This document shows positions 1 through 59,851 of a DNA stretch of 64,000 nt, one piece after another. The notes beneath the pieces were generated by a model that saw nothing but the letters and a program-made list of their open reading frames with translations, made no database searches and was not told where the DNA came from. Positions within the stretch are counted from its first letter, which is position 1; each line of letters starts with the position of its first letter. Origin of the DNA: Hysterangium stoloniferum (lineage: Eukaryota > Basidiomycota > Agaricomycetes > Hysterangiales > Hysterangiaceae); contig WHVD01000216.1 in assembly GCA_015178975.1 (NCBI GenBank), positions 1-64,000 of the forward strand. The letters run 5' to 3'. The position numbers and the translations under genes are program-made.

Positions 1-728
1 GGAAAATGGGAAAAACATCTCTTTCCAAAAAATGGTGGAAGTGTTTAGGTAACATGAAACAAGGGGGGCAAATATTCAGAAATTGTAGGTTCAATTTCAT
101 TCAACCAATTCACCCAACTGGCTTTGACATGTAGCATGTCCCAGATTCCCAGTTGGCCTGGCTTGAAGAATATTCAAAATGTTCAAAATGTTATTACATT
201 GGACTTTTCCGATGGCAACACATTTTGGAATATTTTGAAGGTAGGCTTACTCCCCATCAGGCATTTTTATTCTGATAATGTTACAGACAACAGTCCCTTG
301 CATTGTCCAATTGTTTCCACCCAAGTCATTCTTTGTTCACTGTGTCTATGCCTTGGCAACATTTTGAATGTTTGCAGGCTTACATATGATCACCTTACTG
401 CAATTGGACAGAATGCAAGTTGCTTTGGGTGAATATGAGACATGCTGTGAAGTATATGTTTTTTCTCAGCTCATAAAATAGTTTTCCAACAAATTTTACA
501 GGTAGTGAGTGCTGAGTATGGGAAAGACTTCCACTTCCCAAAATAACATGCACCATCATATCTTTATCATGACATCACACACAAAGGATCAACTATCAAT
601 TACACAACACAAACAGGAGAATGATTTCAGCAAGAATCCTGAGCTGCGTACTTTCAAACTAAATACAAGAATGTGGAGAAACAGGTGTGTATTACAGTAG
701 ATTACTCCTATTGAACAGCTAATTAAAC
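1..728. other. No gene recognised
   Basis: AT-rich sequence with only short chance reading frames. It lies upstream of the transposon-associated fragment that starts near 729 and may be its decayed 5' part, but no recognisable protein motif was seen. Confidence 0.4.
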
Positions 729-2256
729 TTGTTTCAGATAGTCACCATTGATGCAAACAAGGAGGCACTAGCCTATATTGCAATGGATGTTGAAACCTAT
801 GACAATGAGCTTAAAGAGCTGAAGGCCCTGTATGATGACAACTATGAAGAAAATAACACCAGCAAGGAGCTGACAGCACCAATAGACAACAATCACTGGA
901 GGCTTGGGGCTCCTCAGCATTGCCTAATGACATCAAAGCTGTCTACAATGTTTCCTGATAATCCCATTCTTCACATTCTTACAGAGGATATCTCCAATGT
1001 TGTTAGACAATATCTTGGTCCAAGTGAAATCATTTCAACAGGATACAAGGTAAATATTTGATTCATTTTTTTTAGACTTAGTTTGACAACATTACAGATT
1101 ATTCCCTACAAATGTGTCCATATTCACTACACAATCTCTTGAGGACTGGAAGGCTGAGAAAGATATTGCATGCTGCAATCCATCCTTTCATGGCCACCTT
1201 TGATATGACTATATCCTTATTAACACAAACCCAGTGAGTTATTGTCATTTGCTGTTTGTATTCTCCTGTATCCTACGGTCAGGACAGACAGTGGATATGT
1301 GTTACGACTGTGTCGCAACCTGACGGTCCCCAAGGTTATCGCCACCTATCGACGATTCAAGTCATCACTCAAGTCCCCACATCAGAAGCTGTCGGCTTCC
1401 TGATGCTGATGTATACATTCGCAGTGATCAAACTCCATTTATGCCCCTGTCAAATATACTCGTACTATCTAGTTAAACTCTGATACGTCCCTTTTTATTA
1501 TGATGATCCACTCTACTCTATGTTTCACATATGTCTATATATACCTGTAACCCTCGGACTATTTCCTTTTCTCGTAATTCTGCTCTTGGTTATCCTATGG
1601 TCTCCGAACTAATCATAACCTTCCCGTTCCTAGTCAAGCTTATTTGTCAATACTGTTTTCCACTCTTCTCCTAGTTAGTATTTCCTAGACGCCGAATACT
1701 TGTATATGAACCCATTGTAGTTGTAACTACTAGGCAATCAGAATATCGACTCAGAATACCCTCCTACACCTACAGAAGTCTCATACTAAGTACCCCACCA
1801 TCCGCCTTCACGCGCGCTTGCCCACTCTTGGCCTCCAACCCCTTGGCCCGACACTTGACTTATCCCTCATTTTCTGATCGGTAGTTCGCCGAGAGGTTTT
1901 CGTTAGGACTAGTCTTCACCTGCCCGAAATTTAAGGACACCCAACAGATAACTGCAAGGGCGCAGCACATAAGCTGAAGCCAAGTTCCTCCGATCGGTCC
2001 CCGTCAGCCCACCGACATTAGTCGGTTTTCAGTTCTTAACAATATGGCAGTTGTCCAGTGGCTAAAGGAAGCTAAGTGGAAACCAAAAACATACTGGAAG
2101 AACTGCCAGGTATTTGAGGAGAAGGGAAGAAGTATAATCTTCCTCAAGTATGTGGTGTGGGCATGCCACATGATTCCAACATTTGGTGGACCTGACAGGA
2201 TGTACTACTTGAATGATATAGTTGATGCAGATATGTTTTTATGCTGTGGTAACTAG
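729..2256 (+). pseudogene. Fragment of a transposon-associated ORF, split by a solo LTR
   Basis: Exon-like pieces at 729-1050, about 1080-1299 and 2042-2256 read as the C-terminal part of a protein type that I associate with Agaricomycete transposon islands. The visible landmarks are RLGAPQ, NPSFHGH, a hydrophobic LLFVFSC stretch and a final DIVDADMFL motif before the stop at 2254. The last exon is cut between GTGGATATG and GCAGTT by a 742-bp solo LTR. No complete frame or transposase core is visible. The family assignment is from memory and only moderate; it could be the tail of a KDZ-like element or of another repeat-borne ORF. Confidence 0.45.
1300..2041 (+). repeat. Solo LTR (copia-associated family), 5-bp target duplication ATATG
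   Basis: The 742-bp repeat begins TGTTACGACTG and ends TTCTTAACA. It is homologous over its whole length to 11069-11814. The five bases ATATG stand directly before (1295-1299) and after it (2042-2046), which is the mark of an integrated LTR. No internal retrotransposon region is present, so this is a recombination scar. The same LTR type ends at 10204, directly before a copia gag, which links the family to Ty1/copia. Confidence 0.85.
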
Positions 2257-2387
2257 GAGTTGTCAGTCTACAATGTAGCCTTAGAATAGACTTCATTGCA
2301 TGGTAAGGGGTCAAGCAGTAGGAGGGCTAGTGTGGAGAGCTAGAAGGCTGATGTGCACTTACAATATCTGTGTGACTCTGCAAAATA

Positions 2388-3444
2388 GTTACATAATTTA
2401 ACTTGATTTGATTCAGAAACATAACCAGAACTATCTAGCCTACCAATCCATATTGTGAAACTTATTCCAAAAGGATAATCTACAGATGATTGTTTGACCA
2501 ACTTTTATCTAATACAAGACATATATTAATTAATACTTCCTTGTTCTCCAGAGTGACACCTGATAGACTGGATTTTATGGAATATTAATTCTTTGCCAAA
2601 TAATATAAATATACTTGATTGAGTAAATAATTTCATAGTTTTTGTTTATCCTCCTAGCAGTGGGATATCCAAAGAGAAATGGATAAGGAGAGGGGCCTCT
2701 AATAGCACTCACTACTTTACTATAAGTATAACATCAGTTACTACTTATTATTATTAAATTTAAAGGCGGAAACACGAAAGGACTTGATCTGTAAGTTCAT
2801 CTCAGTGAGTGAACAAGTTTCACTGAGGTATGTGGTGAGGAGGATGGTCACACTTTATTGAATATCCAAATTTTACTGAATAATCCTCATATTTTCTAAG
2901 TGAGACTATTCCTTCTGGCCATGACAACTTATTCTATGAGTTTATATTTAATTACCTGAAATTTTCAAATATATTTCATATAATTTAAATTTAGTTGGTT
3001 TAGAGAGTTAACCAGAACTATCTGGGGTACCAATCCTCATTGTGCAATTTATTCCAAAAGAATAATCTACAGATGATTGGTTTGACTAAATTTTGTCAGA
3101 TATAGGATAAATATTAATATTTTTGCATTCTTCAGAGTGATACCTAATCAACTGAATTTGATTAAATATTAATTTTACAACAAACAATGTAAATATATAT
3201 ACTTTAGTGGATAAACAACTTTTTAAAGTTTTGGGTTATCACTTTAGGGGAATTCTTTAGGAGAGTAAATAGGAGGAATTTAACTAATCAAAGTTTCTAA
3301 TTAGTTGCATCATTAAGGAGAGATTTGTAATTAAGGAGTTAGTTCCCCCTTAATGGCACTACAATATATGTGCATATATGCACATATACTCATCATTGGA
3401 TCCATACTTCAATTAAGTATTATGGGAAGACTTGATTACTAACA
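2388..3444 (-). repeat. Two diverged LTR-like copies downstream of a copia element
   Basis: About 2388-2760 and 2975-3444 are diverged direct repeats sharing blocks such as CCAGAACTATCT, ATAATCTACAGATGATTG and CAGAGTGA. The second ends at 3444 where, read on the minus strand, a purine tract GAGGGAAAG is followed by TGTTAG. That is the expected junction of a copia 3' LTR. Both copies are old. The exact outer borders are uncertain. Confidence 0.5.
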
Positions 3445-6400
3445 CTTTCCCTCAAGTTGAGTTTTGATAAGACCAAGTTTCGATATAAAATGAATAATCT
3501 TTGGACGAGGTAGAGCTTTGGTGAATATATCCGCTATCATCTCCTTGGTTGGGCAATATATGAGTGTAACTGTGTCATTCTCCACAATTTCATATATGAA
3601 TTGGTATTGTATGTTGATGTGCTTTGTTCATCCTTGAAATCATTATTTTTTGATATGATAATGGCAGCTTGATTATCACAGTGTAGTGTTATTGGTGAAA
3701 TGAATGGATGGAAAACCTCATTCATAAACTTGCAAATCCAGCATGCCTCTTTGATGGCATATGTAGCTGAAACAAACTCAGCTTCAGTGTGAGATAAAGT
3801 AATGAGCCTTTGTTTGTTTGAACTCCAAGAGAATGTGCCACCATTTAATAGAAAACAGTAACCTGACATTGAATGGTGATCTGGTTGTTGTCCCCAATCT
3901 ATATCTGTATATCCTATTATTCCTTCTTTGTTCCTCCCCAATGTTAGTTTGAAATCTTGTTTTCCTTTCAAATACTTCAGTACTCTTTTTGTTGCTTCCC
4001 AATGTACCTGTCCTGAATTTTCCATAAATTGGGATAAAATAGATACTGCAAAGGCAATATCTGGCCTGGTACCCATTGCGGCCCACATTAATGAACCAAT
4101 GGCTTCACGATATGGAATATTCTTCATATTTTTGCACTCTCTTGGTGTTGTATGACACTGTTCCTTTGATAGTAATGGCTTGGGTTCCATAGGTAGTGTG
4201 ACTGGGACTGCATCTTGTAAATTGAAATGTTTGATAATTAAGTCGATATATGCAGTTTGTCCAAATGAGATTGTATGCACTTTTATATCATATTTGACCT
4301 CTATGTTCAGTAGCCAATGTAATTCTCCCATATCCTTCATTTTGAAACATGATTTGAATTGCTCCTTTATTTGAATTATTCCTTCATTTGTATTTGCAGT
4401 AAGAGTAAGATCGTCTACAGCTACTGCAATCATGATAGTGTTGCATCCTATCTGTTTGTAGAATACAGCTGGATTGGAGAGTGAGCAAGTGAATCCTATT
4501 TAATTAATTACCTTGCTAAGTAGTTTATACCACTCTCTACCTGATTGTTTTAAACCATATAGAGCTTTCTTTAGTTTGAGTACTTTCGATGGTGGACCTT
4601 GAGGGAACCCTGGTGGTTGATGCATGTCCACTGTTTCTGTAAGCTTTGCATTTGAGTATGCATTATTGACATCTATTTGTTCTATAGGCCAGTTATTCTG
4701 GGCTGCTATGCCTGTTATTAGCCTCAGTGAGGCCAGACAAACAATGGGAGAAAACATCTCTTCATAGTCTGTTCTGAATATCTGTGTAAAGCCTTGGGCT
4801 ACGAGTCATGCTTTATATGTGGTAATGTTTCCATTTGCATCGCGTTTTATTCTGAGTGTCCATTTAGAACCGACTATATTGACTCCCTCGGGTTTGTCAA
4901 CAAGTTCCCAGGTGCCTAAATCATCCAAGGCTTTTAATTCCTTTAGAAATGCTGGTTTCCACAATGGCCAATCATCTCCTCTCATAGCATCTTCCACTGT
5001 AGCTTGTATTCCTTCTTGAAGGTTTGCTGGCATCCCTATAGTCACTGACCTCTTACTATCCATCCCATCTATAAAATCCATCCATTCCAGTGGGCTGTAT
5101 GCATCTGCATATGAAACATTCTTATCAATTGTAATTGGTGGGTCACTTGAGTTACTTTCCCATGATATTGAATCTTCATCAAAATCATTTTCATCTTCTA
5201 AGATAACACATGTAGCTTTTCTGAGTTCTTCTGGTACTTGTAGTCCTGGAGGGAATTAAATTTAGCTGGGACTTGCAGTACCTTCCCCTTGTTTGAGATG
5301 GTGCATATAATCAGATGGAAATCTGGTTCTTGTACTTTGTCTCAGTTGTTCTTGAGGTAAAGATTCTGTGGTTTCTGGTAGCTCTGGAGTGTCAGTATAA
5401 GGTGATTGGGGCAATGGCACATCTGTGGGTTCTTGAGAAAGAATTTTGTTCTTCAGTTCATTTGTTCTGTACTCCAGATCCCTTCCTGATATAAGTATAG
5501 GTGCCTTGGTTTTCCCAGGAAATGCCATGTTTCGTTCTACAGCCACAGTTCATTTTTCTGCCCAATATATGCAGTCAGTGTCCTTCACTGTTAAAGCTGT
5601 ATCCAACCCAATAGCCCTCTTTTGCTTTGGGTCCTAGCTTGCCACCCTTTGGCTCCATCCTCACCTACACATTTTCTCCCCATTCTGGTAAGTCACTTAA
5701 GTTTTTCTTGTTGTGAATTAGCTCGTATGGTGTTTTTCCATTGAGAGCTGATGTTGCTGTTCTGTTTTTTAGATACACCACATGTTGTATGCACTCGCCC
5801 CATAGGAACTTGGGCAGATTGGCAGTGATGAGCATCGATCGAATGTGTTCAACTAGTGTTCAATTTAGTCTTTCTGTGACACTATTCTGTTGGGGAGTAT
5901 CATGAATGGTTAATTGCTGGAGTGTTCCTTGTGAGGATAGATAGTCTTTGAACTCATTAGATGTATATTCGCCTCCATTGTCTGATTGTAACTTCTTAAT
6001 TGTAATGTTCCTTTGTTGTTTTAGGACCACTTCGTACATCTTGTATTTCTGAAATGCTTCTCCTTTTGTTTTCATCAGGTAGGCTCTTGTTTCTCTTGTA
6101 AAATCATCAGTAAATGATATATACCATCTACAACCTCTGATGGTCTGAACTTCAGATGGCCTCCACACATCAGTGTGTATCTTCTGGCCTTGAAATTTCG
6201 CTCATTCTGATTTGTGAACTTTTGGGATTGGTTCTTGAGTGATCTTTCCTTTTATACAGGCTTCACAAAACTCGATAGGCCTTGAGTGGTCTAGTGTAAT
6301 TCCTTCAATTGCCCCATTTTTGACCATTTGCTTCACAGCAGCTGGTGCTATGTGTCCCATGTGTGTATGCAGTTCATTTATACTCATCGTGGTGTATGAT

Positions 6401-33743: not shown

Positions 33744-34082
33744 TTATATCCTTTATGGCATCCCTCAAGTGCTCTCACTTCACCGGCAGTTCAAGCGCAC
33801 CCCATTGGACCCTAATTGTCTGGGGTACGAACGCCACATGACAACCACCCAATCCGGAATAGTCCACTGTGAGTACCCCGCTCCCCAGTCCCCCGACCCT
33901 CCCTCGCTCCCCATCATGCTCTGGTCGACCGACTACGGGCGACTCGCCGCCCAAACCCTTTTCCACGCAATCCTGACTCGGTGAATGCGGAAATGACACA
34001 CAATACGACATGGGGGTGGCAAAAGGATGTCCATCGCATACGTCAATCCCACCCCGAAGCAACCCATTTCGTGAAAATCTTT

Positions 34083-34900
34083 AGGTGCCTCTAGTGATAT
34101 TGATATTAGTGTATCAGGAAAACCGTCTTCAAATTCTTGGCATGTAACTTGAGTAATGGCAATGCCATTCAGACATACATGCATTTATGGTGGATTTGGT
34201 GACGGGGGAGTGTGAATTGATCATATCAGTGTACCTTATTAATGTAATGGTCTGGGAAACAGCTATGATCAAGGCAATGGAATGAAAGTCTCCCTCCGGT
34301 TTGAACTTTTGAATTCGTACAATGAGTGGCGACTGTGGCCCTCTGGACTGGATATGCCTTTACCTTGAATTTCCCAGTTCACTCAACGGGCCCACATCAT
34401 TATTTCGGATTTATGTCAATCAAGGAGTTTGATATTGGATGATATCATAAATACAGTCGCCGATTACCCTCTACACCTAGTAGTTTGCATTGTCTTAGTA
34501 TCTGAATCCTGATCCTATATATAGAGCTTGCTTAACTCGAAGCACTGCAGAGCCCTCCAGAGCTCGAAATCGACATATCTGCTATACTTATTACCCACGC
34601 AACGCCACATACATCCCGGAAAGGATATTATGGCCTGTTACTGCCTACTACTGTGGCCATAACCTCCAAAATCTGTTGCTCATTTAAATACGCTTTCAAG
34701 GTGGTAAATAATTCTTGTATTCTTGAATGTCGATGGTTGGCATACCACTGGTATAGGCGAGTGCGATTCCCCGACTCCATTCCACAACCTTTGCATCTCT
34801 CTCCATCCAATTGAAATCGCTGTAAGATGTCGGGAGGCTGGCCGCCTCGTATACCTGTGGGGATCTCTTGCGATGTAACAAGTACCAAATGGGACGTAGA
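34083..34900 (-). pseudogene. Chimeric pseudogene: CMD 3' end fused to another gene fragment
   Basis: On the minus strand, 34760-34530 matches the end of exon 3 of the CMD gene at 45173-45542 (LAYT ... PTIDIQEY ... LNEQQILEVMATVVG), and 34530-34237 matches its 3' flank. Directly upstream, 34875-34770 instead matches the C-terminal exon region of the 21.3-22.5 kb gene; the shared DNA runs from TGTAA.ATGTC to ACC.GTGGGGATC. The two parts do not continue in one sensible frame. 34083-34215 is repeated at 35066-35201. The copy lacks exons 1 and 2 of CMD and is diverged throughout. Confidence 0.7.
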
Positions 34901-36706
34901 AAAATCGCTGAGGACCTTGACTACGTCCCGCCCGTGTATATTTTAAATTAATATCGAACATTCGTTGTATTTAGAGACTGTGATACTAGCATCATGGTAT
35001 TGCTGCAATGGCGTCCGTGGTTCGATATAGATTAGTCCTATTATTATAATTTGGAATGAATATTAAAAATAGTATTAGTGGATCAGGAGGGCAGTGTTCA
35101 ATTCCAGGCATTTAACCTGAGTAAAAGCCATGTCATCTAGGTTTGCATACATCTCTGGTGGGTCTGGTGAAAGGGGGGGAGTGTGAGTTGAAGGGAAACT
35201 GCATCAGTAAAATGGTATTGGGCGCTAAATGGCTTGAGAGCCGTCAGGAACGCTTACTAGTCTAGACCTCCACCAAGAGAGTCCGGGCGCTTCCAGAACT
35301 CTCCAGAAGTGGTAAATGTGCGTCCGGGCAGCTCCAGCATATTCCATGAGTGGCGCTTATGTCCCAACTCCTCCTGCACACGCGGAAGCGACACATGCAT
35401 GGGTGCACCTGTAGTACCCACGCACCCATATCTAGTTAGGCGCAGAACACTAGCGCTGCTCGCCTTATAGTTAGATAGGATAGCCATTGTCTCCCTCTCC
35501 CGGAAATAATACTGTTTTATAATTCTGCCTTGAATAATAATAAAAATTTCCCTCGCGTATTCTTATGTACTCACAAAGCTATTATCAGACATGACAACTG
35601 CCCCAACAACACACCTGTACTTTCGGCAACAGCATCAGTAAAATGGTATTGGGCGCTAAATAGCTTGAGAGCCGTCAGGAACGCTTACTAGTCTAGACCT
35701 CCACCAAGAGCGTCCGGGCGCTTCCAGCACTCTCCAGAAGTGGTAAATGTGCATCCAGGCAGCTCCAGCATATTCCATGAGTAGTGCTTATGTCCCAACT
35801 CCTCCTGCACACGTGGAAGCGACACATGAGTGCACCCGTAGTACCCACACACCCATATCTAGTTAGGTAGCGCTGCTCGCCTTATAGTTAGATAGGATAG
35901 CTGTTGTCTCCCTCTCCCAGAAATAATACCGTTTTATAATTCTGTCTTGGATAAAAAAAATTATTTTCCCTCACATATTCCTATGTACTCACAAAGCTAT
36001 TAGCAGACATGACAGCTGCTCCCACAACATGTCCACAAATACCTGTACATACTTTCGGCACACTCCAGCACTTAGAGCTTAACTGCAAACACATTCAAAC
36101 TCCGCTTGAAAATTTTTTTTGTACTTTTCTCGATTCACCCATCCTTACATTTTATTTTGTCATTGTTTTTGTTACTTTCTTCTGATCACCAAATGAATCA
36201 AGCTAGTGTTAGCCCAAGTATGTTCAATTTTCTTTGCCTTTCTTTATATTTACATAATGCCATTCACAGGTTTGTCACCATCTCCACCACCACCTCTGCT
36301 CCTTGTTCTGCCCCCATCTCTGCCTCTGCCCCAGTTTCTGCCTCCATCTCCACCTTGACCTCCACTTCTGCCTTGGCCTCCACTTTAGGCTCAGCCTCCA
36401 CATCCACTACTATATCTCATGAGTTGAGTCTCAGCCTTAGTGCTAGGACTGGCCTTCCAGAGTATTGCGATCATTACCAAACGATGACAACATAGTCTGG
36501 TACAAAACTGAAAGGCAACTTGTGGAGTTGGCTGTGTCGAACACAGATGGGTTCAGCAGCGGTGATTCTGCACTACACACTGAGCTGCAAGGAGGGGAAG
36601 ATCCGTCTATGATAGATCCATCCATGAATAATGTGAGTGTTCTGAGTAATGGCATTGCAATATCTTCGTTATTCACCTTACTTCATAATATTCAAGTCTT
36701 ACCAGC

Positions 36707-36997
36707 ATGAGGGACGTCCGTGCCATAACAGAGGCGAGGGAGGTGTTCGCAAAAATTTGCTCGCAGCAAGACGAGCTTCAAGAGTGTGTCAAGTTTCTGC
36801 AAGAGTGCAGCACAGAGATGGAGTACGATTTGAGTATTGTACGGAAGCAAGCCCAGGAGGCCGACATCTCCCACCGGTTAGCTGAGAATATCAGTCAGCA
36901 CTTCATAGAGGCGACTGCAGCCCTCTATGAAGAAAACCGACAACTTACCCAGGCACTCAAGCATGCCTACACTATTTTCGTAGAACAGATCAGTTGA
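36707..36997 (+). CDS. Coiled-coil frame inside the nested element, possibly captured
   Basis: A 96-aa open frame encodes an almost purely helical, heptad-like protein (AREVFAKICSQQDELQECVK, then LYEENRQLTQALKHAY). It follows an intron-like CTTACCAG acceptor at 36700-36707. It sits exactly where the intact relative at 42.2-44.5 kb has the DUF6532 core. A captured host fragment is the simplest reading; function unknown. Confidence 0.4.
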   Translation: MRDVRAITEAREVFAKICSQQDELQECVKFLQECSTEMEYDLSIVRKQAQEADISHRLAENISQHFIEATAALYEENRQLTQALKHAYTIFVEQIS

Positions 36998-37302
36998 TGT
37001 TTATAACAACGGGAATGCAGCCATGGGATAATGGCGACCAATCCGATTTGGAGCATTGCGAATCATCCACCAGTGACATGGACTCGGGCGATGACAGGAC
37101 TTGGATGCTTAGTATGTCTATGTCTAGGTTTCAAATCGGTGAAATTGTACTAGTGATTAGTTCATTACTGCTGGCAGCATCTAGAATTACTTAAAATCAA
37201 GCTTTTTAAAAAGTTAAATAATATTAGTTTTCAAAGCCATTTGACTGGGACAGCGGGGTAATTAAAAGAAAAATTTATTAATATATAAACAATATACAAG
37301 AC

Positions 37303-37400
37303 ATGTGGATGATGCTGGAAGTCTGTGGACAACACTGGAAGTCTGTGGACAACACTGGAAGTCTGTGGATGACATGGGAGGATGTGGATGACACAGGAGG
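37303..37400 (+). repeat. Subterminal tandem repeats of the transposon right end
   Basis: CTGGAAGTCTGTGGACAACA is repeated in tandem (three near-perfect units), followed by variants with GTGGATGACA. The intact right end at 44705-44760 has a shorter version. Subterminal repeats of this type bind transposase in CACTA-like elements; binding here is inferred. Confidence 0.6.
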
Positions 37401-37779
37401 CAGTATGATCCAGCGTCATCCGGGACATCCAAAGGCATTCCGACGTATCCCAGACACTCCACGACGCTGCCAGAATGGGCGACCTCCTCCCACGCCTCCA
37501 GCGCTCATGGAGCGTCCAAGACCATCCAGGCGCCAATACCATGTTACTGATGCACTCCAGCACTTAGCGCTCCGAGTCATGTTCTGTTCGAGCTCATCAT
37601 CGGCGACATTGTCAAAATCACTTCACCAACTCTTCTTTGTCTAACTCTTTCTTTTGTGCCATATAGAATTCTATCCTATCTAACTATAAGGCGAACATCA
37701 AAAAGATTAATGTATTTACAAATAAAAATAAAGATAATAAAAATATTTAGGAGTACTTAACTGTAAATCAATATTGTTT

Positions 37780-38520
37780 GAATGATAGAGCAACCTGTTT
37801 AAATAGTAAGCATTAGGAACCAATATTGGACCTGGAGCATACTCCAACATCTTTCCACATTGTCACACATATCCTTAGAAACCAATACTCATTCACAATT
37901 TATCTTATTTTTCTTGTTGTTTGTTCATTTTGGTCACAGTCTCAAGACCCAGATATTCCACTGGGTTCTGGAATGTCCCTTATGGCTTCTGACCCTAAGT
38001 TGTCTAAGACAATTCATCTCTTGGGTCCTGTCAGATTATTCCATGAATGCTAGATGCTTTGTAACCTGTGTTCTGCCCTATCTCTGGTTTGAATTTGACA
38101 TATGTATGTGTAGTCACTTGCTTATTGTGCTATTTGGACTTGTACCATTTCCTGCCCAACCCTTGTTCCTAAACCAGTCAACCCTGTATCCTTCCTGTCT
38201 TCCCATTTCATCTTTTTGTCTGATTGGATTAGTAGCATAACAACTATAAGGTCTATGTATATACATCAGTAAAATGGTATTTATTCTGGACAGCTCCCGG
38301 AGGAGATCCCCCCATTCTAGGAAGCTCCTGGATGTTGTGGAGCATGTGGAGCATCCCAGAATAGGGATACCTCCTCTCAGTGTTTAATACCATTTTCCTG
38401 ATGTAGTCTAAAGAATAATCAGAATATCAACTTAGCTACACCCCAGTACATTTCCCAACCTATCAGTCTTAAAACTCTAAATCATGTATTTTCAGAGCCT
38501 ACAGATAGTAACAACATTGT
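37780..38520 (+). repeat. LTR-like debris, interrupted by a MITE
   Basis: Pyrimidine-rich sequence and the block AATCAGAATATCAACTTAG at about 38415 resemble the interior of the copia-linked LTR family. The copy is old. The MITE at 38264-38403 is inserted in it. Confidence 0.35.
38264..38403. mobile_element. MITE of the same TIR family (140 bp)
   Basis: It begins CATCAGTAAAATGGTATT and ends AATACCATTTTCCTGATG, and TA flanks both sides. The interior (GGAGGAGATCCCCCCATTCT, GTTGTGGAGC) resembles the reverse complement of the right end of the 9.7-kb transposon. A second copy lies at 59714-59851. It is a deletion derivative that could be mobilised in trans. Confidence 0.85.
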
Positions 38521-38584
38521 GGACTCAACTGTGGAAAAAGAGAAACTAATATACAACACTATCCTCTGATGCTGTAATCACTAT

Positions 38585-41500
38585 CTAGAAAACTGTCTGA
38601 AATGTAGCTTTAGTGTGGAATGAGTTGATCCAAAATCGCTCCACACACTCAATAGTATTTGTTCCACATAACACATTACCTATTGGGTCCAAATTACTGG
38701 CTTTCTCTCCAAAACATGGTGATAATGGACATGGCTGTACTACTTGATCCAATTCAATGATGTCTGTGGTTTGATGCCCTGAGTGACCATAAGATTTCTG
38801 CACAGCATACATGCTTATATCTGAATTATATCCATCATAGTCAAACCACTCAACATAGGCCAGATGCTTGGGGTGAGGGTGGGGCCCTTTCAAATTAATA
38901 TGTGCTGGCCTGAAGATCATCCGTAGTTGTGCTACTCTCAATCCTGTAATAGTAATTTCAATTGGTTAATGACTTTGAAAAGTTAAGACTTACCTTGAAG
39001 TCCCATTTGTTGAGAAGAGCTTGTTGGGTTTGTATCAACAAGGACAATATCAAAAACATCTGGAATTTCTTTCTGTGTCACAGTGGCCTTCTTTCCAAGT
39101 GCAGCTCGTATTATTCTTGTTTCAATTGGATCATGCAAACTATCAAGAACAGGCAATGTAATGCGAAACATTTTCCAAACATCCAGGGTCTTGTAATAAC
39201 TTGGGATACCAGTTTCAACTGCCACCCGATCCCACCCTCTACCAGATGCCTGTGAGCCCAAAGACCTTTTAGCCTCAAATATTTTCACAGCTTCTTGAAA
39301 TTGAGTTGGACTTATTGAAAACAATTTCATAAGTTTCATAATTTCCTGTGATGCTATTGATGGCCGTTGTGCTAGCTTTGGCTCATAGGTCATTGTGGGA
39401 AATGGTATTGCTTGAATTTCTGTGTCACCATCAAATTCAGGATCCAGACCACTGTTATCTGATTCAAGTTGGGGTTCTGAATCTGAATTCCAATATCCTG
39501 TGTGTTGTAATTGTCGCCATTCAATGTATCGCTCAAAATAACGAAGCTTCTCTTGGCGATCCAGCCATCTAACCATTTGCTCTGTATAGTCTTTCTTGCT
39601 AACACCCCGATATGCTTTCTTAGCATATTCTATATGATAACGCTCTGGTGTTTCAGTTGTAAAGTTAGTGGTTGCTCCAAACCTGCGAATGAATTCTGGA
39701 TAATGTGGTCGTGTATGTAACTTAGGAATACGGAAATGAGGAATTGTCCCTTTCTTTCCTCTTCGTGCTCCAGTGGTGATAAAGATATTTTTATTGAGAT
39801 GCCATATTTTATTATATTCCATTAATTGGGAAAGTGTCTCTTCAGTGTGAGAACGATATTGAGCCATATAGATAAAATCTAACTCTGCCCGTGTGGCACG
39901 CAGAGCTTGTGAAGGAACTGCTCCTACTAATGCTGGTAGTATTGAACGTTGTAGGTCTCGATGTTCCTTTCCTGTCCACTGTGATATCTTTGAAATCCCT
40001 GCAGTAAAATGACGAAAACCTGGAAACTTAGGCAAGCGTTGAAAACGAGCATCAAGCTCTAATTTTCCCACAAGGTTTATGTGCCATGCCACACAGTGGT
40101 CTTTAAATGCCTTGTGTAATCCATGAAGAACATCTGGACAAACAGCCTTGCAGATATCCAAAGAGGGAAAGTCAATCCACCATGGTTCTTCTACACCATT
40201 CAATTTTCGTTCTTTGGCTACCATTGCAAATTTCCAAGTATCTGCATCTGGAAACTCCTGGCGAATTCCTTTAATTGTGTCCAATATTGACTGGCCAGTG
40301 CGTGGGATCTGCACATGGTCAGCATCAAGTAAGTGTGTCCCAGCCAAACAGGGTATACAATTATTGGGTGCAAGACTTGCAACCAATGCCTGCTCTGGTG
40401 TATCAGCAATATAGAATAATGGTGCTAGTATTTCCTTGCGAATATATCCTTCACTGTCCACCATTTCTATAGGTGTCACTGTAAATGGAATCACTGGTTT
40501 CATGACTTCTCTCATGCACATGTGGTACAGGTGCCTTGACAAGATGCCTGGTAAAAGACTGGCCTGTGTGGGATTTTGAAATTCCAAGTGGGAGAATTTC
40601 CCCTCAGGAATAAAGGCAAGAGGTAAGAAAACCCATTTACTTGGCTTTGCACGAACATTTTGGCGAATATGTGCTGAGGAAATAAGAAGAGGTTTGACCT
40701 TCTTATCACCAGTCAACTGTGTCAGATGAGTACTATCTGTTGTCATGATAAAGGGATTGATTGTAAGATTGGGAAATTTTCTCTGTAATTCATTCCATGC
40801 TTCACCACTTGCAATTTCACTATAACAGCGAATTGTTCCTTCTCCATCCACATACTCCTCATATGGCACATAATCTTTTTCTCCCAATTCTGGATTGGCT
40901 TCAAGCCACTTTAAGCATTCCACAGGATCTCTATACAATAGCAGCTGTGGATCTTTAGGTGCCTCTGGCAAAGTAATCCACCTTGCATTCCAAGGTGGCA
41001 AGCCAGGCAAGGCCTCAATGCGATTTATAAGATCACTACTGGTCTTGAATGATGGTACATGCCCAGGAGCATTGACCTGTATGAGTATGAAATGAGTAAG
41101 CACAACTATATGCCTCAAAAGGATTGTGTTACCCAAGGTAAATTGAGAAACTTATCAATCTGAGTATTGGGAAGTCCACTACTCCCTAGCCAATTAGCTA
41201 ATTGCCACTCCTCTTCTGTTGCAAATGGAAAAAATGGGGCATTTGGATCCTCATTTTGTTTAGTTTTCTCATAGGGAGTGTCAGCTTTCTGAAGCTTCTT
41301 TGCAACATTTGAAAATGGAAATTTGTAATAGCACTTTGGAAAGTCAGAAGTATTTGTATGGTCCCGAGTGGTTGATCCAGCAGGATTAGGAATGCATTGA
41401 GGAGTAGCATTCCCCACTGAGCAGTCAACATCCATACTATCCATGGAATTACCAGTATCCATGTTATTCATGGAATCATCAATCTCCCAACCACCATAAT

Positions 41501-41714
41501 TATCATCACTGTCTGAACTATCTTCCTCAGGCTCTTCATAAAACCCGGGAAGATTATTTGGAAGTGGAAAAGATGAAGAATTGTCAAGATTAATCTCTTT
41601 ATAGTCCTGAGATTCTAACCATGCTTGACAAGAGGGTGACTTTGCCATATGAACTGATAAACTGCTGTTAGATCCACAAGTAACATTGCATAAAGGTGAG
41701 GGACAAATGGGCAT
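38585..41714 (-). CDS. Plavaka-type transposase, complete, 1007 aa
   Basis: Exons 41714-41133, 41076-38994 and 38943-38585 join by introns of 56 and 50 nt with matching phases (3024 nt). Residues 4-29 form a Cys/His cluster (C4, C9, C13, H22, C29) like the N-terminal zinc finger of this group. Residues 60-160 are acidic. The catalytic region follows family order: an Asp in MTTDSTHLTQ (about 308), a CxxC pair (434-437), a second Asp in CPDVLHGLHKAFKDH (about 509), WTGKEHRDLQ (about 561), and Glu in NFTTETPERYH (669-672). The C-terminus has the usual LRVAQLRMIFRP and YVEWF segments. Family: DDE transposase of Plavaka elements, which cuts and pastes DNA at terminal inverted repeats. No stop or frameshift was seen. 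The alternative upstream ATG (41756) is less likely, because MPICP starts the zinc finger. Confidence 0.9.
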
Positions 41715-42210
41715 TTTAAGTGTTGTGAGATGGGTCAGTAAAGAGAACAACCACACGGGAGATCAGTGGAGATCAGTTGAGTGATGAGTGATTTCTGCAG
41801 TCATGTGATTAACAGCCCTTTTCGGAGCTCCTTATAGTATCATGAGTTTAATTTTTTTTTTTTTACCCTTATATTCTATAAAAAAACCCTTCAAAACAAA
41901 AAGAGTATAAAAATATAAAAAGAAAATTCTTATGAGTAAACAAGACAAACAAAACAAAAAAACAAGGTATACTGAAGGTAGAAAGGGGCAGGCTAAGCTT
42001 GCACGAAGCTTAACTGCAAACACATTCAAACTCCGATTGAAAATTTTTTTGCACCGTTGCTCACTTTTCTCAATTCACCCATCCTTTACATTTTATTGTC
42101 ATTGTTTTTGTTACTTTCTTCTGATCACCAAATGAATCAAGCTAGTGTTAGCCCCAACCACAAAATCCCCAAAAGAAAAGCTAAGGTAAGCTTTAATATT
42201 TCTATAGTGC

Positions 42211-44507
42211 ATGTTTACTGATCTAGAATACAAGGCTACAACAATGACAAGACCTACAAGATCCTCAGCAAGGTCAAAACAAGCTCAGAAGACTAGTCCC
42301 ATAGAGCCTGAACCAACTACCACTGCTCCACACCATTGTAGTACCCAAAGTCAAAACCGGCTAGGTTTTTCTCAAAATAAGCTGGAGATACGAACTCATA
42401 AGGTATATCCTATATTCTGTTTTACAAATATTGTATAACTAATTTACAATAGGATAATGATAATATCCCCATGACAATAGACCCAAATTTCGAATTTACC
42501 TTTGATGATGGCATGCCTGAAACACTGGCACGGGAAGACTCTGAGTTTCGGTATATGGTGGATGATAATGAGGGTGGAGGTGAAACTGAAGGTGAGGTTG
42601 ACTATGAACAACCCTCTGTGGTTGTTGATGTGGTTTCACATGCCGCTGAGGCTGAGATTGCTCGCCTCAAACATGAGCTTGCTATGGCAAATGCACAAAA
42701 TGAATTCCAGTCACATTCCATGTCCAGACAGCCCTCCATCTCCATCAATGAGGCCCCTTTACCTCCTGGAGTCCCGAAAACAGGCCCCGTGGCTGGAAAA
42801 AAGGTGAGAAGTTTCTCACTACTTTCCTCTTCGTAGATATCATTTGCTTACTGCTAAATAATTTTGTTTTATTGCTATTATTAACCTACTATTTCTTTTC
42901 ACCAGCGCTCAGCAGTATTATCTGAGCCATATAATGTTCTTGTGGCCCACAAAAAAAAAAAAATGACTTCAAAGAAACTTCCCACGGTAAATTTTCTTCA
43001 ACAGCATGCCGCACAACAGGCTGCTGCCACTAAGTAAGCTCAATTTTCTTTGCCTTTCTTTATATTTAATGCCATTCACAGGTCTATCACCATCTCCACC
43101 ACCACCTCTGCTCCATTTTCTGCCCCCATCTCTGCCTCTGCCCCGGTTTCTGCCTCCATCTCTGCCTTGACCTCCACTTCTGCCTTGGCCTCCACTTCAG
43201 ACTCAGCCTCCACATCCACTACCATATCTCATGAGTCGAGTCTCAGCCTCAGTGCTGGGACTGGCCTTATTGCCAATCCTGCCGAAGGTGTCAGGGCAGA
43301 CCAACTGCGTGCGTACACCCCAAACCACAAAAGGTTTTTCAACCACACAAAACGATACATCCACTTATTCCTTGCAACTCAAGATGCTTTTCCGACTATT
43401 GAGGTTTCGGAAAATTTTATTGTCAATGCAGTCCGGTTTGCGAATACAGACATGGGTGTGGATGTGAAGATATCAACTGATATTCGAAAAATGGTAAGGT
43501 TATATTATTTTCATTGTTATTTTAATTTACAGATTGATTACTAGCTGAAGAATGAGATGTCGAAAGTTCGAAACAGATGGAAGGCAGCCGCTATGAAGGT
43601 GGTCCGTGATGAGTATGGACTAAGTGGTACCCATGAACAGATAAAAGCACGCGCAACATTTATTTTACAGGATTTCCGTTATGTATACATCAGGTCAGAC
43701 AGCCCAGAGTTGGTAAGCCTGTACCCCATTATCTACCATGGTTTATTTTCAATTTTTGCTAATTAATTTCTTTTCTTTCTTTTTGTTTCTAGGAATATCG
43801 TCGAGAGCGCCCATTTGAACACACGTGCATTGCAAATGTCGTGAAGATGTGTGCCTTCACACATCATCAAAGCATCGCACGTCTTAAGGAAACAGCACTC
43901 AAACCTGTTCCGGCTCAGGTCATTGCCCTCGCAACTATTGTGGTATGTTCTAATTCACTTATTGTACTCAGTTATTTTTTGGGGGAACTAACATTTGTTT
44001 TAGATCCATAATGCCGTCGCACAGTGGAGGGAGACAGGTAAACTGAAAAACATATCATTGGAAGACAAAAATGGCTATTGCGCCAAATACCGCAAGATCC
44101 TTGAACACCTCGACATCGTTCGGACAGGCAGACCAACATATTTTAGTGCCCTTCAAACAAGTTTGTATCAACAGGGAATGTACGCCATAAGTTGTTAAAT
44201 GATTCAGTCATTATTTTCTAACAAATTTTTCAGGGCTACGTTGGGTATCACAATACAGCGCGCTGGATCTGACGATGATCATTTCACCATCGGAGACGAT
44301 ATCACTCCTGACAGTGCCATTTCCCCTTCCATGTCACCCCTTCAAGTTCCCATCACTCGTAGTAAGCGTTTATTGTACCAGGCAGCCACACGGGATAACG
44401 GCGACCAATCCGATTCGGAGCATTGGGAGTCACCCACCAGCGACATGGACGCGGGTGACGACAGCGACAATGGCAGCGTAATTCCAACCGATGACTTAGA
44501 TGCTTAG
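42211..44507 (+). CDS. DUF6532-like protein of the transposon, apparently intact
   Basis: About nine exons join in frame across GT-AG introns (donors near 42399, 42804, 43034, 43493, 43713, 43942 and 44180). The order is a basic N-terminus, an acidic segment (42470-42620), a short coiled coil, a Ser/Thr/Ala/Pro tract (43090-43260), the core from about 43310 to 44170 (KVRNRWKAAAMKVVRDEYGL, ATFILQDFRYVY, IANVVKMCAFTHH, PAQVIALATIVIHNAVAQW) and an acidic tail. The core resembles DUF6532, an uncharacterised basidiomycete domain; the match is from memory. ATG 42211 is used, but ATG 42132 (MNQASVSP) followed by a short intron is possible. It is divergently oriented to the transposase, with 0.5 kb between them. 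A role in transposition or target choice is inference only. Confidence 0.65.
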
Positions 44508-45172
44508 TATGTCTATATCTAAATTTCAAACCGGTGAAATTGTACTACTAGTAGTGATAGTTCATTACTGCCGGCAGCATCTAGAATTACTTAAAATCAA
44601 CCTTTTTTAAAAAGTTAAATAATATTAGTTTTCAAAACCATTTGACTGAGACGGCGGGGCAATTAAAAGAAAAAATTATTAATATATTAGCAATATACAA
44701 GACATGTGGATGACGCTGGAAGTCTGTGGATGACATGGGAGGATGTGGATGACACAGGAGGCAGTATCATCCAGCGTCATCCGGCGTAATCCAAGACATC
44801 CAAGGCATTCCGACGTAATCCCAGACACTCCACGACGCTGCCAGAATGGGCGACCTCCTCCCACGCCTCCAGCGCTCATGGAGCGTCCAAGACCATCCAG
44901 GTGCCAATACCATGTTACTGATGTGTAATGGCTGGGGAAACAGCCATGATCAAGATTGAAATGAAAAGTCCCCCTTCCGTTTAAACTATTAAATAAGTAC
45001 AATAAGGGCGGCTGCGGGCATGGACTGGATACACCTTCATGTTGGATTTCCCAGCTTCGTCGCGTCCCCCACTATTATCTCAAGTCAAAGGAATATGATA
45101 TTGGATGGTGTAATTGATACAGTCGCCCCTATGTATCTTGCCACCTATTATAATCCAGTATACAGAGCTTAC

Positions 45173-45930
45173 TTAACTCGAAGCATTCCCGAGCCCTCCA
45201 GAACTCGGAATCACCACGTCTGCCATATCACCCACATCTAACGCCACAAGCACCCTCGAAACCATATTATAACTTGCTACCGTCGCAGTCACCTCCATAA
45301 TCTGCTGGTCACTCAAATGCGCTTTCAGGGCAGCGAATATTTCTTGGGGGACTTTGATGTCGATGGTCATGGCATCGGTGTAGGCGAGTGCGATTGTAAA
45401 TAATGGAGATAAAGCGGACGCACTCGACTCGAAGGGAGGGTGTTGTGCGGGCGAAGGAGAGTGGGTGTGAGCAACATCACCGATTGCGCTGATTTGTGAA
45501 TCTGTGAGGCCTGCTGCACGACCGATGACCTCGTGTGCTTTCCTGTATATGAAGAGAAGATCATAATAAAAATGAACGAAGCTCAGAAGAAAAATACCGA
45601 GTTCCGAAAATGTGTGTGACTTGCCATTCGTATGCCGCTGAATTTAAGGCAGCAACTCTGAGAATCTAGAAATTGTGGTGGAAAAATGAGTGACATGCTA
45701 GTATATGACAAAAGGTTGCCTATACTAACCAGCAATTCCCTCAACGCAGCATCTAAAGTACTCTTCTGCCTCACCGCCCCAAGTAAATGACTATAGCCTT
45801 CTGCAATCGCAGGTGCATTCAAAAAGACGCCATCGAGCTCAATTAGCTTGCCATCTTTGCGACGGCTGCGAATTTCGTCGGCAACAGGCGAGGTACCGGG
45901 GTCGGGGAAAACGTAGGGAATGCGAGGCAT
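45173..45930 (-). CDS. Carboxymuconolactone decarboxylase (CMD/AhpD-like) family protein, 212 aa
   Basis: Exons 45930-45730, 45665-45598 and 45542-45173 join by introns of 64 and 55 nt (639 nt, phases agree). The N-terminus MPRIPYVFPDPGTSPVADEI and the motif ELLILRVAALNSAAYEWQVT are typical of fungal CMD-like proteins. This all-helical fold is shared with AhpD. The CxxC of true AhpD peroxidases is absent, so a decarboxylase/lactone-type or unknown activity is more likely. Many fungal members have unassigned substrates. The protein should be cytosolic; there is no signal peptide. The gene is divergent from MED16. Its 3' flank was hit by the 9.7-kb transposon, 250 bp beyond the stop, and a partial copy of its end survives at 34.5-34.8 kb. 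Confidence 0.9.
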
Positions 45931-59713: not shown

Positions 59714-59851
59714 CATCAGTAAAATGGTATTTGTTCCGGACGGCTCCCGGAGGAGATCCCCATTCTGGGAAGTTCCTGGACGTTGTGGAGCGTGTGGAGC
59801 ATCCCATAATAGGGGTACTTTCTCTCAGCGTTTAATACCATTTTACTGATG
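59714..59851. mobile_element. MITE, second copy (138 bp)
   Basis: It has ends CATCAGTAAAATGGTATT and AATACCATTTTACTGATG, a palindromic outline, and GA on both sides. It is closely similar to 38264-38403. The perfect terminal match to the 9.7-kb element marks it as its non-autonomous satellite. Confidence 0.88.

Follow-up and report, generated by a model that had tools for sequence, protein, structure and literature searches.

A probably autonomous PlavakaB transposon with a divergent DUF6532 gene and a nested short relative in Hysterangium stoloniferum

In the account of Kojima 2025 (PMC12730594), PlavakaA transposons have TGT..ACA ends and a 2-bp target duplication, and PlavakaB transposons have CATCA..TGATG ends and duplications of 2 or 3 bp (section 3.2.2). 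The PlavakaB lineage is placed in the CMCT clade of DDE transposases. The same paper reports TET+ Plavaka elements in Agaricus bisporus and Gymnopus confluens, and terminal inverted repeat motifs of Marasmius Plavaka are shown in a supplementary figure of PMC8290104. Among better known systems, En/Spm (CACTA), as presented in PMC2613891, needs the TnpD transposase together with TnpA, a binder of subterminal repeats. In this study, we analyzed the first 64,000 nucleotides of contig C131 of the Hysterangium stoloniferum genome (the window; host genome 111 Mb in 554 contigs, to which all C-numbers refer) and therein the block 35202–44923, which a sequence-only reading had described as one complete transposon with a Plavaka transposase gene and a DUF6532 gene. 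The block is likely to be a recently active, probably autonomous PlavakaB cut-and-paste transposon of 7,802 bp that was later hit by a non-autonomous relative of 1,920 bp. We refer to the family of the window element as F1 and to two further families of the same genome that combine Plavaka with DUF6532 as F2 and F3.

The window element shares with the PlavakaB elements of Kojima 2025 the Plavaka transposase (PF18759 domain), the CATCA..TGATG ends, which F2 and F3 also have, and a 2-bp duplication. Since it shows these PlavakaB features, which were the ones checked, its ends and transposase are of a described kind, and the CATCAG ends, one part of the combination that the sequence-only reading took for a possibly undescribed element, correspond to those that PMC12730594 gives as characteristic of PlavakaB. 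The ends and the enzyme are thus already described, while the regular DUF6532 partner is known from one genome and no earlier description of it was found. No Plavaka element with a DUF6532 gene was described in the literature searched, a scope that excludes subscription journals and supplements; a term search for it in the text of PMC12730594 returned 0, and the sequence supplement of that paper may hold the gene unremarked. A passage of a Ganoderma paper records the two domains as additional in one and the same pair of species and draws no connection between them.

The outer element and its nested relative

An exact search with the end pattern CATCAGTAA[A/C]ATGGTATTGG returned 38 places in the genome and a reversed-pattern control returned 0. 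Four of the 38 lie within the block, at 35202 (+), 35633 (+), 37552 (−) and 44923 (−); the outermost two are the matching inverted CATCAG ends proposed earlier, and the order of all four suggests one element inside another. A copy on a different contig, C101:142915-150712 (7,798 bp), matches the block minus 35633–37552 end to end at 99.68% (BLAST), and global alignment of this copy with the outer element gives 99.73%, with 21 substitutions and 4 gap columns. Because the C101 copy aligns without 35633–37552, the block can be resolved into an element of 7,802 bp and a nested relative of 1,920 bp. The left arm of the outer element (35202–35632, 431 bp) starts with the CATCAGTAAAATGG end and is contiguous with 37553 onward in C101:142915-150712, and the right part (37553–44923) closes with the inverted CATCAGTAACATGG end. 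The reported TG duplication is indeed present, with its left copy at 35200–35201 and its right copy at 44924–44925.

The block can consequently no longer be treated as one unit. That it represents a single 9.7-kb element, or that its two genes are adjacent by chance, is extremely improbable, even though the outermost ends match and TG stands on both sides: the C101 copy omits 35633–37552, a stretch with its own ends and with siblings elsewhere at 98–99.6%, so that a single 9.7-kb element is ruled out by the inner ends and the un-nested copy, and chance adjacency is opposed by divergent pairing of the two genes at 20 of 61 loci versus 1.4% expected per locus.

With respect to the borders, the TG duplication and the C101 copy carry more weight than the local paralog that had been taken for an empty site. 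The host flanks do align across the junction with window positions 33990–34760, as the sequence-only reading stated; however, this paralog is diverged and about 14–16 bases at the junction are unmatched, so that it serves as an empty site only roughly. A genome search with the joined flanks for a clean empty site elsewhere matched only the window's own two flanks. Two diverged copies of the host sequence adjoin here, one at 33990–34760 and one at 35000–35201 plus 44926–45320, the latter split by the transposon.

Target duplications were counted over the 21 copies for which the two ends and the two flanking sequences were available, which leaves out C388:396k and C151 (both F2) and C16 (F3), where one end each was found or read. 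Matching dinucleotides flank 18 of the 21 complete copies (12 of 15 for F1 and its short relatives, 2 of 2 for F2, 4 of 4 for F3), and a three-base match occurs in 0 of the 18. The duplicated dinucleotides vary (TA, TG, CA, CT, CG, TT, AA and AG), and copies without a match are the nested one at 35633–37552 and those on C22 and C279. For the F3 copy on C62 the flank is an abundant repeat, and the copy of this repeat on C13 continues uninterrupted close to the insertion point, apart from five additional bases. Where the relative is nested, the window exceeds C101 by three bases, CAG, which we read as a doubled CA and one G.

The transposase gene lies on the minus strand (38585–41714; exons 41714–41133, 41076–38994 and 38943–38585) and its spliced frame encodes 1,007 amino acids (aa) without a stop, the main exon matching PF18759 Plavaka at 5.6e-65 and 220 bits (cut-off 26.3). 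On the plus strand, the DUF6532 gene (42244–44507) has eight exons (42244–42402, 42453–42803, 42906–43033, 43082–43493, 43545–43712, 43793–43942, 44004–44179 and 44234–44507), all introns being GT..AG, and encodes 605 aa without a stop; its start codon is uncertain, an upstream ATG being a possible alternative as judged by eye. Its product matches PF20149 DUF6532 at 2.1e-32 and 113 bits (cut-off 24) over profile positions 3–192 of 194, with the domain at residues 303–493, and is therefore a true family member. Both gene models were drawn by eye. The genes stand head to head, with 529 bp between the start codons (41715–42243), presumably a two-way promoter region. The intact transposase, the intact DUF6532-like gene and their arrangement, all noted earlier from the letters alone, are thereby confirmed, and the description as a complete, probably autonomous two-gene Plavaka element can be kept for the 7,802-bp unit. 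Both genes were compared in four F1 copies, of which two are intact, namely the window copy and the C101 copy, which is open over all 1,007 + 605 codons; in those on C22 and C388 the genes are interrupted by stops and frame breaks.

DUF6532 beside Plavaka transposases

Plavaka loci were collected by searches with PF18759 and the window transposase and DUF6532 loci by searches with PF20149 and the window DUF6532 gene, yielding 61 and 40 merged loci, respectively. Rows at loci already listed were left out before merging, and two Plavaka loci below the Pfam cut-off (C126, C510) were kept in the pairing count. DUF6532 was found within 20 kb of 20 of the 61 Plavaka loci (19 elements, C13 giving two), and all 20 pairs are divergent. 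Uniform scatter predicts 1.4% pairing per locus (P 4.5e-22, with loci treated as independent); because copies of one family are not independent, it is safer to count families, of which there are at least three. Between F1 and F2, transposase identity is 57% in one aligned piece and 63% in another, and between F1 and F3 it is 41%, and the DUF6532 domains follow the same order, with 34% for F1–F2 and 22% for F1–F3. CATCAG at both ends together with 2-bp duplications was found for the F2 copies on C515 and C12 and the F3 copies on C62, C70, C112 and C533, the DUF6532 region of the last being broken. In addition, GGGCGCTAA is common to the F1 and F3 left ends about 21–29 bases in (read by eye), and, of the D, D, E, C(2)C and H motifs of the CMCT clade, the F1, F2 and F3 transposases seem to have in common one C(2)C pair and three H (sequence alignment read by eye only). 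Among the subset of CATCAG places inspected, none was seen with an unrelated transposase, F2 and F3 carrying Plavaka, which agrees with the link between ends and enzyme drawn by the sequence-only reading. The most likely reading is that DUF6532 belongs to these elements as a permanent component.

At 21 of the 40 DUF6532 loci no Plavaka lies within 20 kb; DUF6532 without nearby Plavaka was observed on C31, C301, C57 and C399 and at C235:427016, C441:1588480, C442:410066 and C529:303815, presumably in decayed elements or host genes. Another Plavaka family is present at C54:111500-120500 and C77:82600-91600, 95% alike over 4.2 kb. By tblastn, no relatives were confirmed for the transposase in viral and prokaryotic contig collections or for DUF6532 in viral contigs, collections that are uninformative on other fungi.

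Within F1, the DUF6532 gene is under purifying selection. Its ratio of nonsynonymous to synonymous substitution rates (dN/dS) is 0.28–0.46 against five older F1 copies (C22, C388, C527, C9, C51), with p values for neutrality of 4e-5 to 0.011 in a test that assumes 23.5% synonymous sites, and 0.5 against C101, from 8 changes. Subterminal repeats were assessed as repeated 7-mer pairs in the 300 bp beside each end, relative to the mean of shuffled sequence and to internal windows. The right subterminal region of the window element (44604–44903), with repeated GGATGAC, TCATCCA and CGCTGGA words, has 47 pairs versus 7.5, a value reached by 3 of 66 internal windows. The F2 right end has 41 versus 9.8 (0 of 53 internal windows), the F3 left end 104 versus 13 (1 of 76) and the F3 right end 175 versus 25.5 (0 of 76). 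In our model, the transposase would recognise the CATCAG ends, cut and join, and the DUF6532 protein would be a second element-borne function, most likely binding the repeat-rich subterminal regions. The element proteins could also mobilise in trans shorter relatives with the same ends, among them 35633–37552, the 1.9-kb relative that jumped into the existing 7.8-kb element, and miniature inverted-repeat transposable elements (MITEs) of 138–140 bp. A TnpA-like binder of subterminal repeats that helps or regulates transposition is our tentative proposal for the DUF6532 protein, and we would rank this role first, anti-silencing second and a passenger third.

Several observations weigh against such a two-protein transposon. 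No DUF6532 lies within 20 kb at 41 of the 61 Plavaka loci, many of which are short fragments, and the sizeable C54/C77 family showed no DUF6532 either (tblastn, nothing below E 0.1). F1 copies on C527 (2,570 bp) and C9 (17.4 kb) retain the two ends and a portion of the DUF6532 gene and lack the transposase; in F3, the transposase stretch is missing from the copies on C90, C196 and C442, and all or part of the DUF6532 stretch from those on C133, C261 and C533. The transposase dN/dS is 1.92 against C101 (8 changes), 0.54 against C22 (p 0.17) and 0.71 against C388, where the alignment is poor; since these values are not clearly below 1, no selection on the transposase is demonstrated. The left ends of F1 (12 versus 6.9, 31 of 66 internal windows) and F2 (12 versus 9.1, 26 of 53) show no excess of repeats, and the right-end excess of F2 and F3 is partly AT-rich simple sequence. 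Furthermore, structure prediction of the transposase reached a mean predicted local distance difference test score (pLDDT) of 33.5, too low for use, and the search for a solved structural relative of DUF6532 returned none, the best E of 0.14 being noise.

Two other roles of the DUF6532 protein have to be considered. It could be an anti-silencing or regulatory factor directed against host repression, outside cutting and joining, which we regard as rather unlikely. According to PMC12730594, a TET/JBP dioxygenase with this presumed role occurs in some PlavakaB elements, so that the lineage has use for anti-silencing genes, and the kept divergent position suits a regulator as well as a helper. However, DUF6532 is the only domain found in the protein, the Pfam scan matching no enzymatic or chromatin domain besides it, a solved relative is lacking, and present data favour neither anti-silencing nor the helper role over the other. 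The TET/JBP dioxygenase domain itself (PF12851) had 0 matches in the genome, though control genomes were equally silent, and none in Pfam scans of the element's open frames. Clearly less probable still is a passenger gene, gained by an ancestor of these families and without a role in the life of the element: related short elements do hold host fragments and copies without DUF6532 exist, but the same divergent position is found in three families at 41–63% transposase identity, and a dN/dS of 0.28–0.46 speaks against a gene without function in the element.

Shortened copies and probable capture of host sequence

The C527 and C9 copies share a near-identical internal deletion, from outer position 647 to 4811 or 4817, and are also without 638 bases of DUF6532 coding sequence; because of this nearly identical deletion and the coding loss, we take them to be deletion derivatives. 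Such one-gene copies as could be traced look like products of deletion. The expectation that complete copies always carry both genes therefore fails literally for these two end-to-end copies, but read as deletion derivatives they do not refute it. The C9 copy (C9:88353-105726) has F1 ends, a TT duplication and a 1,554-aa retroelement-like frame. We had considered it as a cargo-bearing giant and rejected this; it is instead a transposase-deleted copy with the retroelement-like frame and other sequence inside. Two GC-rich stretches in it are seemingly inverted copies of each other.

The nested relative (35633–37552), located 431 bp inside the outer element, has the same ends and no transposase; it shares 99.6% identity with C112:1013509-1015401, 98.3% with the C512 copy and 98.6% with the C547 copy. 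It contains a fragment (36457–37001, plus strand) that is absent from the autonomous element and 89% identical to C431:405218-405773; part of a 102-codon open frame (36689–36997) lies in this fragment. A search with the 545-bp fragment hit 8 places, of which 7 belong to elements with such ends and the remaining one is that on C431; the fragment was likely captured from C431:405218-405773. Two F1-ended elements, C260:13669-16389 and C441:24386-27129, hold about 1.1 kb matching C224:442064-443189 at 85%, with weaker matches at C224:428371 and C13:477837 (73–74%). Pieces of the C224 place match the phosphate:H+ symporter model TIGR00887 at best at 8e-43, below the whole-protein cut-off as expected for pieces, and a C441 frame matches Sugar_tr at 2.1e-7. 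The symporter-matching pieces are in different reading frames, so introns are probably part of the captured DNA. Part of the left end of the C260 element is inverted. At position ~919–950 of the C441 element, an inverted repeat with two 16-base arms coincides exactly with the capture junction (by eye), an arrangement compatible with template switching in the course of repair.

The shortest relatives are MITEs. One of 140 bp, ending in CATCAG/CTGATG and flanked by TA on either side, lies within the outer element (38264–38403) and is also present in the C101, C22 and C388 copies; a second member of 138 bp, with GA on both sides, is found at window positions 59714–59851. The family occupies at least 40 genome places at 89–100% identity.

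Comparison with described systems

Taken together, we hold the following wider reading as a possibility that still falls short of being probable: DUF6532 would be the standing second protein of CATCAG-ended Plavaka elements, a TnpD/TnpA-like system with an unrelated helper, much of the family in mushrooms would be transposon-borne, and short relatives would spread pieces of host genes. PF20149, a family of unknown function, gains a concrete setting: its gene is carried by a group of fungal transposons and holds a constant place in them. Should this apply generally, what is annotated as an ordinary fungal DUF6532 gene ought in many cases to belong to a transposon, and PlavakaB would be a two-component system. 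The captured fragments are a possible route for shuffling coding sequence in these genomes.

For the captured pieces, comparable cases are the Pack-TYPE elements of plants treated in PMC8903248 and the hAT that captured histone H3 in fungi treated in PMC6710886, which, as presented there, are likewise short elements that keep their ends and carry host pieces, whereas the ends here are those of PlavakaB. The nested copy may be Pack-TYPE-like, with shared ends, no transposase and a donor place on C431 that may or may not be coding. No report of PlavakaB-ended elements carrying host pieces was found in the literature searched.

For the additional gene, the TET+ Plavaka elements described in PMC12730594 are the nearest parallel, as they are likewise PlavakaB with an additional gene, there a TET/JBP dioxygenase and here DUF6532. 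En/Spm, as it is presented in PMC2613891, serves as a working analogy, with two element-borne proteins and repeat-rich subterminal regions in both cases. In contrast to En/Spm, where TnpA arises from splicing of one transcription unit, the PlavakaB elements of H. stoloniferum have two divergent genes, the second of which encodes an unrelated domain.

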